Shown piece after piece: positions 10,675 through 59,164 of a stretch of DNA of 64,000 nt. The stretch comes from Caulobacter soli (GTDB lineage Bacteria; Pseudomonadota; Alphaproteobacteria; Caulobacterales; Caulobacteraceae), in assembly GCF_011045195.1 (NCBI RefSeq), contig NZ_CP049199.1, forward strand, positions 3,038,001 to 3,102,000, read 5' to 3'. The notes under the pieces are model-generated. The model saw only the letters and a program-made list of their open reading frames with translations, was not told the DNA's origin and searched no databases. Numbering within the stretch: position 1 is the first letter of the stretch; each line of letters opens with the position of its first letter. The translations under genes were made by a program, and so were the position numbers.

Positions 10675-11139
10675 GCCCCCTGAAATTCCTGCGCTAAATC
10701 TTTATTCCCCTCACCCTTTCGGGCTCGCCGTATCCTGTACCCACCTCGACGCAGGGAAAGGGCGCATGGCCAGCGACCGATGCGGCGGCGAGGGGCGATC
10801 GAGCGGGAAGCTTTGTCGGTTGTCTTTCGAGACCAAACCTCGCGTCTCTGGTGCCGGTCGGGCCTGGAACACAGATACGACGTGACGTGAGGGTCGACTT
10901 AGCAGCAGGCGAGCGGTGACAGGCTCGCGGTCCGGGACTGGGGTTCGTTGACCCAGCCCGCCCGTCGGAGGCTCCAAGGCGAGGCCCTAACAGGGCTCAG
11001 CGTCGCGGGCTTTCGGATAACGACCGCGCGGGGCGGCAGGCTTCGTCGAAACGGTATTCTTTTTCAAAACCCGGACGATGTCCGGCGCTCCGCGACCCTT
11101 TCCGATCAGCTCACAGCCAGATTGGCGTGGGATCACACT
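10675..11139 (+). ncRNA. Candidate large structured RNA element, copy A
   Basis: No convincing gene lies between 10622 and 11269. This stretch is homologous to the minus strand of 48862-49325. Shared blocks include GTATCCTG-N2-CCCACCT (10730-10746), GATCGAGCGGGAAGC (10797-10811), GGTCCGG (10929-10935) and CTTCGTCGAAACGGTA (11041-11056). Stems differ but stay paired: 10909-10914/10923-10928 and 10938-10942/10952-10956 here have differently sequenced counterparts in copy B. Indels between copies are not multiples of three. A Caulobacter-type -10 element GCTAAATC lies at 10693-10700, though no good -35 is seen. The four-hairpin array at 11140-11253 follows directly. It could be an RNA gene or a non-coding mobile element. 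Confidence 0.5.
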
Positions 11140-11253
11140 CACTTGCCCCCACCTGGCGGCTTTGCCGCCTGTCCGCCCCCGTAGGGGGCGGAGGACGAGC
11201 CTCTTCCCCCGGAGGGGGAAGACGACCGCGAAGCGGTCCGTAGGGGGCAAGTG
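11140..11253 (+). repeat. Four-hairpin palindromic array, copy A
   Basis: Closed by perfect 11-bp ends CACTTGCCCCC / GGGGGCAAGTG. In order it contains GGCGGC-ttt-GCCGCC, a CCGCCCCC/GGGGGCGG hairpin, CTTCCCCC/GGGGGAAG, and GACCGC-gaa-GCGGTC. Compared with the copies at 1470 and 48731, the first hairpin changed from GACGGC/GCCGTC to GGCGGC/GCCGCC, a paired change. It is contiguous with the RNA-like element upstream and lies just after the end of the minus-strand gene at 11270, so it may also terminate that transcript. Confidence 0.88.
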
Positions 11254-11269
11254 TTCGCCCGCTAAGACC

Positions 11270-18366: not shown

Positions 18367-18441
18367 GCCGGATTAGCTCAGCGGTAGAGCAGCGGTTTTG
18401 TAAACCGAAGGTCGGGGGTTCAATCCCCTCATCCGGCACCA
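18367..18441 (+). tRNA. tRNA-Thr (anticodon UGU)
   Basis: A cloverleaf can be drawn in full: acceptor GCCGGAT / ATCCGGC, D arm GCTC-AGCGGTA-GAGC, anticodon loop TTTGTAA with anticodon TGT, T arm GGGGG-TTCAATC-CCCTC, and an encoded CCA (18439-18441). The outermost anticodon-stem pair is a G-A mismatch, which is tolerable. TGT reads ACA/ACG threonine codons. Confidence 0.96.
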
Positions 18442-22610: not shown

Positions 22611-22730
22611 GTGCGTCTTGTCCTCCCAGACGTGAACGACCGAAGGCGGTCGCGAAGACCGTCCCATCGCGATGTTGTCGCCATGTTGCGATGTGTTTCC
22701 CAGCTGTCGGAACGTGCGACCGCACAGGTC

Positions 22731-22757
22731 AAAAAAAGCCCGGCGCAAAGGCCGGGC
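22731..22757 (-). terminator. Intrinsic terminator of the candidate sRNA
   Basis: Minus strand: stem GCCCGGC / GCCGGGC with a 6-nt loop, directly followed by TTTTTTT (22737-22731). It is one of the cleanest Rho-independent terminators in the window and does not belong to any protein-coding gene upstream on that strand. Confidence 0.85.
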
Positions 22758-22812
22758 AGTCATTAGGGAGGAAACGCCCAGGAAGGGCAGGAGCGCCAAA
22801 GGCGGCTCCACG
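22731..22812 (-). ncRNA. Candidate trans-acting small RNA with anti-SD motif
   Basis: Reading on minus: promoter TTGATC (22841-22846), 16-bp spacer, TAGTTA (22819-22824), predicted start near 22812. Then comes a GAGC-c-GCC/GGC-GCTC hairpin (22791-22808), a GCCC-ttcct-GGGC hairpin (22776-22788), a single-stranded TTTCCTCCCTAATG (22761-22774) complementary to Shine-Dalgarno sequences, and an intrinsic terminator (7-bp GC stem, 22738-22757, plus seven T). The region holds no open reading frame of note. This layout is that of an Hfq-type sRNA with a C-rich seed. No match to a named sRNA is claimed. Confidence 0.6.
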
Positions 22813-46310: not shown

Positions 46311-48689
<2,379 letters not shown>

Positions 48690-48730: not shown

Positions 48731-48861
48731 CACTTCCCCCTACGGACCGCTTCGCGGTCGTCTTCCCCCGGAGGGGGAAGAGCCTCCTTGGCGAACGCAG
48801 CACGAGGCTCCGCCCCCTACGGGGGCGGACAGACGGCGAAGCCGTCAGGTGGGGGCAAGTG
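48731..48861 (-). repeat. Four-hairpin palindromic array, copy B
   Basis: Same array as at 11140 and 1470: closing ends CACTTCCCCC / GGGGGCAAGTG (one G lost at the left), hairpins GACCGC/GCGGTC, CTTCCCCC/GGGGGAAG, CCGCCCCC/GGGGGCGG, GACGGC/GCCGTC, with a slightly longer insert before the third hairpin. On the minus strand it directly follows RNA-like element copy B, in the same relative order and spacing as copy A. Confidence 0.88.
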
Positions 48862-49325
48862 GGTGTGATCTCACGCCAAAGGCCATGAGTTGGTGGGAAG
48901 GGTGCGAAGCGCCCGGGCCTCGCCCGGAGTAGCTTTGATTTGAGTACCGTTTCGACGAAGTTCAGGCGCTTCGCGTGGAACCGTTTTCCAGAAGCCTTCG
49001 GATCGCGGATTTTTAACCCGCTCCGATGGAGGCCCCCGACGGGCGGAGAGTCGGCTGAACTCTCCGGACCGTGCGAGCGATTTCAGCCCGCACCTGCTGC
49101 GTTCGCCGATCCCTCGCCGCCTGGGCTTCGTCCTGTGTTTCAAGGAACCTGCCCAGGACGTCCGAAGCGTCACTCAAGACCACCGACGAGCGCTTCCCGC
49201 TCGACCACCCCTGAAAGCCGTTCGGTCGCCGGCCGGACGCCCTCCCCGTGCTCTCAGGTGGGATCAGGATACGGGCGGTCTGGAGGGGTGAGGATAGATT
49301 GGGGTCGAGAAAGTTCAGGGCTTTG
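48862..49325 (-). ncRNA. Candidate large structured RNA element, copy B
   Basis: Homologous, on minus, to 10675-11139 on plus. Blocks: GTATCCTG-N2-CCCACCT (49272-49256), GGTCGAGCGGGAAGC (49206-49192), GGTCCGG (49070-49064), CTTCGTCGAAACGGTA (48960-48945), TTGGCGTG-N-GATCACAC (near 48870). Stems 49093-49086/49078-49071 and 49065-49059/49051-49045 correspond to differently sequenced stems of copy A. On the minus strand the first contains a G-U pair where plus would have an A-C mismatch, which supports minus-strand RNA. A perfect 8-bp inverted repeat AAGTTCAG/CTGAACTT (49311-49339) lies at its 5' edge. Open frames here (for example 48871-49173) are not conserved in frame in copy A. Confidence 0.5.
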
Positions 49326-58069: not shown

Positions 58070-58077
58070 TTTTTGAT

Positions 58078-58204
58078 CCGCTCATCCCGGCGAATGCCGG
58101 GACCCAGATCCTAAAGCTGAGTGGCTGATTGGATTAGCTCGGCGCTCGTGGCGTCAGCCGCACCGCCATTCCATCTGGGTCCCGGCATTCGCCGGGATGA
58201 GCGG
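58078..58204. repeat. MITE-like element, perfect terminal inverted repeats
   Basis: 127 bp with 32-bp perfect inverted ends beginning CCGCTCATCCCGGCGAATGC (58078-58109 and 58173-58204). The 63-bp centre is related to that of the element at 59031, which has exactly the same total length. It sits between convergent stops. No coding potential. It fits a non-autonomous element moved by a transposase elsewhere, or an extragenic palindrome. Confidence 0.85.
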
Positions 58205-58216
58205 AGGAAAGGGCCC

Positions 58217-59018: not shown

Positions 59019-59030
59019 TTTCTAAAAATT

Positions 59031-59157
59031 CCGCTCATCCCGGCGAATGCCGGGACCCAGATCCTAAAGCTGAGAGGCCGATTGGAAGAGCTCAGTGCTC
59101 TTGGCGTCGACCACACCGCCCTTCCATCTGGATCCCGGCATTCACCGGGACGAGCGG
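59031..59157. repeat. MITE-like element, second copy
   Basis: 127 bp, same length and plan as the element at 58078. The left end is identical over 32 bp; the right end has three changes (for example ATTCACCGGGACGAGCGG). The centre shares AGATCCTAAAGCTGAG and later blocks. It is lodged between the stop of the PuuD-like gene and its terminator, so it is transcribed and could alter the 3' end of that mRNA. Confidence 0.85.
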
Positions 59158-59164
59158 AGATAAA

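Follow-up and report, generated by a model that had tools for sequence, protein, structure and literature searches.

For the element treated here as copy A, whose RNA core lies at 10744..11103 on the plus strand of the window (the whole 64,000-nt stretch of the Caulobacter soli genome that was analysed), membership of a new, multicopy family of structured RNAs is well supported by sequence comparison. We put at roughly 60% the probability that copy A is one member of a high-copy family of independent genes for putative trans-acting structured RNAs. Bacterial cell biology uses Caulobacter as a model genus, and the family would add to it a pseudoknotted RNA of 360 to 400 nt that occurs in up to 34 copies per genome and has no match among Rfam families. 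The clear fold and the conserved loops make the predicted RNA directly testable in culturable species.

The core of copy A, a member of subfamily A, extends from helix P0 to the 3′ strand of helix P1 and was delimited with at least 34 genome copies, alignment A1 (25 copies) and structure counts. The core of copy B (subfamily B; 48895..49258, minus strand) was delimited by homology, alignment A1 and structure counts, and scores 135.3 bits with the covariance model. Sequence comparison confirmed the homology between copy A on the plus strand and copy B on the minus strand that an earlier note on this DNA had reported. That note had described a two-copy duplication of a single unit of ∼590 nt; instead, the genome holds at least 34 copies, and the presumed unit separates into two modules, namely the core (∼10744-11103) with a 3′ hairpin reaching ∼11132, and a palindromic array at ∼11140-11253. 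The array of copy A (11140..11253, plus strand) consists of four hairpins, lies outside the RNA family and forms inverted-repeat pairs with 1464-1525 and 48808-48879. Since such arrays occur at many genome sites that have no core, the ∼590-nt unit is a composite. BLAST of copy A against its own genome gave at least 58 matches (40 of 139 candidates scored), which fell mainly into two classes, covering either the RNA core (∼10728-11113) or the hairpin array (∼11135-11259). The palindromic array beside copy B, located by sequence comparison, is at 48731..48861 (minus strand), and a third lies near 1464-1589. These GC-rich four-hairpin arrays (1464-1589, 11140-11253 and 48731-48861) have ends of the form CACTTGCCCCC...GGGGGCAAGTG and are dispersed in the genome with or without an RNA core. 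A different palindromic repeat of 130 bp, with CATCCCGGCGAATGCCGGGA-type ends, is present in two copies with 89% identity at 58077-58206 and 59030-59159.

All of the at least 34 copies in the C. soli genome are on the main contig (C1; 0 of 34 on C2), and they fall into five subfamilies. This count is a lower bound, as it was obtained with a covariance model of the P7-P8 domain for which 150 of 5,955 first-look candidates were scored; all 34 matches cover the full model. BLAST searches with the cores of copies A and B retrieved 25 full copies (10 in subfamily A, 7 in B, 4 in C and 4 in D), with core lengths of 360 to 398 nt. Nine further copies found with the model make up the fifth subfamily, E, in which the order of helices is alike as judged by eye; the sequences inspected were thus the 25 of subfamilies A to D and the 9 of subfamily E. 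A single decayed copy, a tail fragment near 2234584, was noted among the BLAST matches listed (best 40 scored).

In copy A, the predicted fold (all plus strand) is closed by helix P1, which pairs 10755-10761 with 11096-11102 (100% of cells paired; double changes, i.e., changes on both sides of a pair, in 2 of 6 counted pairs). Helix P0 joins 10744-10752 to 10785-10793, with double changes in 8 of 9 pairs across 83 sequences; its 5′ strand precedes P1 whereas its 3′ strand is enclosed by P1, so that the two form a pseudoknot. Between the 5′ strand of P1 and the 3′ strand of P0 is the P2 hairpin (10763..10784; double changes in 5 of 7 pairs, 83 sequences). Two long-range helices belong to the core: P3 (10795-10801 with 11021-11027; double changes in 2 of 7 pairs, 92% of cells paired) and the nearly invariant P4 (10803-10807 with 10961-10965). 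A variable domain that runs from the GAGCGGG motif to P5 (10808..10905) has an identity of 0.36 to 0.68 between subfamilies and is nearly missing in some copies from other species (L254, L278 and L280). It is followed by hairpins P5 (10909..10928; double changes in 4 of 6 pairs), P6 (10934..10959; 5 of 7 pairs) and P7/P7b (10966..11015; 2 of 8 and 4 of 8 pairs), and then by the P8 domain (11028..11093; double changes in 1 of 8 pairs, 99.5% paired), which carries the conserved sequence GTCGAAACGGT at 11045-11055. Past P1, a 3′ hairpin, CTCACAGCC..GGCGTGGGA (11110..11132), was recognized in the alignments by eye, without statistics. Two of these elements had already been named in the earlier note, which proposed stems at 10909-10914/10923-10928 and 10938-10942/10952-10956; they correspond exactly to P5 and to the inner part of P6, and copy B forms the same pairings through other bases.

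For the 25 copies, RNAalifold predicted 72 pairs, 24 of them with double changes; P0 and P2 were missed by the program, added by eye and then counted. Over the resulting 78 pairs, 95.6% of cells are paired, compared with a mean of 86.7% in shuffled alignments and 41 to 50% when the structure is slid along the alignment, the fold being favoured relative to the slid versions in that it was partly derived from the same 25 sequences. Changes on both sides were found in 31 pairs (21.6 shuffled), double-change cells numbered 203 (shuffled mean, 68.2), and the covariation score was 0.351 (0.183 shuffled, 0.05 to 0.12 slid); for none of these four measures did any of 500 shuffles reach the observed value. 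A fifth measure, the number of further pair types, is weak, giving 72 compared with 68.2, a value reached by 40 of 500 shuffles. P0 and P2 were also counted in 83 distinct 5′ segments from many species, a set that includes some of the sequences in which the two helices were first noticed: double-change cells numbered 217 (85.6 shuffled, 22 to 70 slid), 85.5% of cells were paired (70.8% shuffled), and 13 pairs had double changes compared with 9.6, with 8 of 500 shuffles as high. Compensatory change thus exceeds the controls, as is asked of a structured noncoding RNA gene, and covariation lies well above both shuffled and slid expectation.

The same comparison was extended to other genera, where 18 of 21 loci yielded a segment, all of them from one genus (g3) and none from the loci of g13 and g21. 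In these g3 sequences, P5 forms all six pairs in 14 of the 15 sequences with the loop motif, by means of several different stems (the motif was not found in 3 of 18), and P8 forms all eight pairs in 17 of 18. In the alignments, compensatory change preserves the predicted fold throughout the Caulobacter copies and likewise preserves P5 and P8 in this second genus. P4 and the inner pairs of P8 hardly vary, and covariation therefore speaks neither for nor against them. G-U pairs are present at many of the paired positions. Single-sequence folding energies gave z scores of −0.66 (copy A) and −3.08 (copy B); the value for copy A is unremarkable, so the evidence for the fold is comparative.

Within P8, two inner pairings exclude each other: 11044-11054 may pair with 11071-11077, or the latter may instead be part of a hairpin at 11071-11085. 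The strand CCGGRC accordingly finds its partner either upstream, in GYC(GAAA)CGG, or downstream, in GYCCGG. For the first alternative, the flanking pair occurs in five types and is formed by 116 of 118 segments, where 90.2 would be expected from independent columns, a count that takes related segments as they come and covers the 118 of 128 segments that fit the pattern. For the second, an exchange between A-U and G-C preserves pairing in the alignments as judged by eye. The two exclusive P8 pairings are a possible conformational switch.

A −10-like box, TATCCT, precedes the core of copy A at 10731..10736 (plus strand), and the A and T of the pattern TAnnnT are invariant in 83 aligned sequences. 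In the same alignment, the corresponding box of copy B, GTATCCT, with its start region, occupies 49257..49272 (minus strand). Variants such as CATAAT, CATACT, GTACTCT and similar sequences take its place elsewhere, and the hexamer of some g3 copies bears little resemblance to any consensus. As the box lies ∼7 nt before P0, the RNA would start at or next to P0. The promoter suggested in the earlier note, GCTAAATC (CTAAATC, 10693-10699), is present in just 4 of 10 subfamily-A copies and gives way to TATCCT as the box of the family. An upstream dyad, TTCAAAGCCCTGAA (also given as TTCAACGCCCTGAA), lies ∼70 nt upstream of P0 (49314..49327, minus strand, in copy B) and recurs in many copies of subfamilies A, B and E and in some of D; it is mostly missing in g3. 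With up to three mismatches, the dyad was found in 45 of 110 upstream regions compared with 28 of 2,200 shuffled ones, a few of the matches lying at other positions. A simple pattern scan of copy A revealed neither a consensus sigma-70 promoter nor an intrinsic (U-run) terminator.

Protein coding, which the earlier note had considered unlikely on account of indels that are not multiples of three, was ruled out by stop codons and by mostly nontriplet indels. All six frames are interrupted by stops in nine of the ten subfamily-A cores, and hence no single frame stays open across the core in every one of the 25 copies. The indel pattern is borne out within subfamilies A to D, where the lengths that are not multiples of three number 98 of 133 (A), 48 of 64 (B, six copies, L049 being left out), 6 of 6 (C) and 27 of 27 (D); a conserved open frame was not found.

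DNA matches to copy B were found in 40 of 61 genomes of the genus, including its own (best ≤11 candidates scored in each). A covariance-model search of the family Caulobacteraceae gave matches in 65 of 199 genomes, which belong to 4 of 22 genera (best ≤16 candidates scored in each, under stricter filters); the other 134 gave no model match under the filters used. Given this patchy occurrence, the RNA is not needed across the whole family Caulobacteraceae. In a class-wide sample, the model matched 3 of 337 genomes, all of them Caulobacteraceae and one of them the C. soli genome itself. Twelve genomes carry 1 to 32 copies each, with 150 candidates scored per genome; G012 has 8 and G040 has 9. 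In addition, an exact-pattern scan for two motifs (a 5′ motif and a second motif) in named genomes gave at least 16 both-motif matches among 138 loci (L095-L232), many matches being due to chance. Caulobacter sp. BK020, UNC358MFTsu5.1, Root1455, HMWF025 and UNC279MFTsu5.1 are among the both-motif matches listed. Two Caulobacter loci (L165 and L198) lack the second motif yet match the model; a haloarchaeal locus (L131, no model match) and one with the motifs 13 nt apart (L152) were taken as chance. The full-length set comprised 60 loci, from which L003, L082 and L092 were missed; after a false L196 segment was dropped, 57 remained, 41 of which entered alignment A2, and alignment A3 contains 83 of 105 distinct 5′ segments. 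In one genome (G035), adjacent or split cores at C24:192375-193074, C23:369323-369820 and C9:107054-107355 perhaps reflect tandem copies or assembly effects at repeats. Copy B had no match in phages or plasmids, and the 10 viral contigs that carry the 5′ motif all lacked both the second motif and a model match. A phage or plasmid origin was rejected on the lack of matches to copy B, the only query used.

The copies in the window do not share a genomic neighbourhood. Copy A is flanked by a gene for a small COX4-like protein (a match below the cutoff) and a gene of the 3-hydroxyisobutyrate dehydrogenase type, copy B by ligA and an acyltransferase gene, and these four genes are unrelated to each other. 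By a heuristic based on GC3, the right-hand gene points toward the RNA at 18 of 25 sites, with 3 of the other 7 calls resting on doubtful frames and 2 of the 18 genes being short and >1 kb away. With the right-hand gene mostly convergent, a leader-type riboswitch is unlikely for most copies. At the ligA/acyltransferase site in 16 genomes, the element lies between the two genes in two, beside ligA with the acyltransferase gene elsewhere in two, and is absent from between adjacent genes in five, the remaining seven being uninformative. That this site is filled in some genomes and empty in others shows that the element was gained, lost or exchanged through some DNA-based process, and the element as such may be mobile. 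In one genome (G144), a subfamily-A core occupies the place beside ligA as judged by eye, and the ligA site of relatives carries other types of palindromic array. For the copy A site, the element was found between both flanking genes in 2 of 16 genomes, beside the right-hand gene in 1 and on contigs starting inside the element in 2, with 11 unresolved.

Subfamily A has two upstream types, whose upstream identity to each other is 0.47 to 0.59 while that of their core segments is 0.88 to 0.98; in its far part, upstream type 1 shares an identity of 0.84 with the upstream region of subfamily B, from which the core segments differ (0.38 to 0.80). By these identities, upstream regions and cores are evolving separately. 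A tree of 39 subfamily-A cores was built from 50 loci, 6 of which gave no core by motif search and a further 5 of the 44 being omitted (four from G035 with Ns or broken 5′ ends and one chimeric-looking from G033). It requires 9 changes of genome label, compared with a minimum of 6 and a shuffled mean of 24.6. Two genomes (G006 and G144) account for one change each, the C. soli genome for three and G033 for two, with strays (L010 and L356); the rows of G035 and G044 show no clear clustering, values as low being reached by 47 and 500 of 500 shuffles, respectively. Cores from the copy A site of the C. soli genome, G006 and G144 group with paralogues from their own genomes, and that of G035 falls in a mixed group with weak support. 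The pattern on the tree, with cores clustering mainly by genome and not by site, is one of concerted evolution, at least in subfamily A. Gene conversion best accounts for cores that are specific to a genome at sites that genomes share, although the pattern may also be compatible with recent transposition. To our knowledge, it would be unusual in bacteria for dispersed RNA genes other than those for rRNA and tRNA to evolve in concert. One C. soli copy (L049, G000:C1:1358717-1359213) combines, by eye, a subfamily-B 5′ part, a D-like middle and a B-like 3′ part, which suggests recombination between subfamilies.

Searches of the window and 18 loci against Rfam at strict and lax thresholds gave no relevant match, the sub-threshold hits being of the chance type; the lowest E value, 0.0013, came from a plant miRNA model over L253 (36.8 bits, cutoff 77.5). 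The earlier note had likewise recognized no known RNA class, and its suggestion of a novel large bacterial RNA family agrees with the covariation, the Rfam result and the lack of a frame open in all copies. Within the window, Rfam did place a suhB/mmgR small RNA at 22724-22795, and a tRNA-Thr gene is at 18367-18441. OLE, ROOL, GOLLD and raiA are RNAs of several hundred nucleotides or so, multibranched and often pseudoknotted, with narrow lineages and obscure functions, and such large ornate RNAs may be the nearest functional idea by analogy. By that description, the Caulobacter RNA is likewise large, multibranched, pseudoknotted and confined to a narrow lineage, but it has no Rfam match, reaches 34 dispersed chromosomal copies and evolves in concert. 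HEARO, the omega RNA of IscB-IsrB elements, is a multicopy structured RNA dispersed in genomes, as is the RNA described here; unlike HEARO, the latter lacks an Rfam match, is flanked by COX4-like, dehydrogenase, LigA and acyltransferase genes and resides in a genome without a Y1 transposase match. HDV-like ribozymes have a P1/P2 pseudoknot of characteristic strand order, with a catalytic cytosine in the joining strand before the 3′ strand of P2. The order here (P0 5′, P1 5′, hairpin, P0 3′, large domain, P1 3′) matches theirs, and HDV-like catalysis was considered for that reason; however, only ∼2 nt separate P8 from the P1 3′ strand (columns 405-406 of A1: GA in subfamily A, AC in B, AG in C and CG in D), and with no conserved cytosine at that point and no Rfam match the idea was rejected. 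A hammerhead, considered for the sequence CGAAAC, was dropped by eye, as the CUGANGA core is missing. CcrM-associated intergenic repeats (CIR) of Caulobacter and Brucella are described as two-arm elements of ∼110 bp with GANTC at the loop (PMC2229807). They too are dispersed intergenic repeats with an RNA-like fold, but GANTC occurs in just 1 of our 25 cores, which at 360 to 398 nt are far longer. Another report gives 106 new noncoding RNAs for C. crescentus (PMC4117421), among which members of the present family may be included. In the literature listings searched, in which subscription journals were poorly covered, no mention of the present family was found; related papers are PMC4117421, PMC11005374 and PMC2229807.

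As for function, the members of at least one group of copies stay similar to each other in each genome, which indicates that the RNA is probably a working one. The predicted RNA would be transcribed and act in trans as RNA, most likely as an abundant scaffold with a protein partner that recognizes the conserved GAGCGGG, GATAACG and GTCGAAACGG sequences. The variable domain could specify a separate partner or target for every subfamily, and the exclusive P8 pairings could act as a conformational switch. Many copies would serve dosage, with gene conversion keeping them alike, as in rRNA operons. We tentatively propose, as a specific version that we find somewhat less likely than not to hold in full, a new class of abundant bacterial RNA on a par with rRNA-like housekeeping or RNP scaffold RNAs, encoded in Caulobacteraceae by tens of dispersed genes that gene conversion homogenizes; a dedicated protein would bind its pseudoknotted core, and its P8 domain would switch between the two exclusive helices.

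The main rival to independent trans-acting RNA genes is a nonautonomous mobile element (resembling a MITE, or dependent as a satellite on some unknown element), in which the structured transcript serves only its own spread and the copies are selfish; we consider this unlikely, though it merits serious weight. It would account for the at least 34 dispersed copies, for a ligA site that is filled in some related species and empty in others, for the two diverged upstream types around nearly identical subfamily-A core segments and for the palindromic repeats found as neighbours. A survey of mobility enzymes, in which RVT_1 and Y1 transposase were searched, also bears on it: RVT_1 was found in 5 of the 12 genomes rich in copies and in none of the 7 that are copy-poor, and Y1 transposase in 2 of 12 and 4 of 7, respectively, five of the copy-poor genomes having no model match and two (G016 and G051) being classed as such by the lack of a DNA match to copy B. 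The C. soli genome itself, however, has no match to either enzyme. A derivative of a retroelement, retron or group II intron was rejected for want of RVT_1 in that genome, and an IS200/IS605 or REP-RAYT element for want of Y1; the RNA-based mobile element offered as one option in the earlier note is not supported in that form, since the genome has at least 34 copies yet no match to either enzyme. By eye, neither terminal inverted repeats nor a target duplication were seen at the copy boundaries or at the ligA site, where the flanks are so diverged that a duplication may have escaped notice. Decayed copies were hardly noted, the phage, plasmid and viral-contig searches described above yielded nothing, and cores at a shared site cluster by genome, all of which tell against selfish spread.

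A cis-acting RNA, i.e., a 3′-end or leader element such as a terminator, stability element or riboswitch-like structure for neighbouring genes, would suit the intergenic position of the copies in the window and the switch-like alternative pairing of P8. We judge it improbable, given a −10-like box right before the RNA, a convergent right-hand gene at most sites by the GC3 heuristic, four unrelated flanking genes and no U-run terminator in copy A. Least probable of all, and very much so, is a DNA-level repeat, such as a site for recombination or chromosome organization, that is palindromic by chance and for which RNA is irrelevant. The confinement of all copies to the main contig would fit such a role; P0, P1 and P3, on the other hand, are long-range or pseudoknotted helices that covary yet have no simple equivalent as DNA hairpins, and the G-U pairs and the conserved −10-like box likewise favour an RNA gene.

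One further observation concerns copy B and its neighbour. Positions 49115-49132 of copy B are an exact 18-nt reverse complement of the ligA mRNA at 47715-47732 (encoding the motif RRLGFV), possibly by chance, and the same 18 nt complementary to ligA are carried by some other subfamily-B copies.
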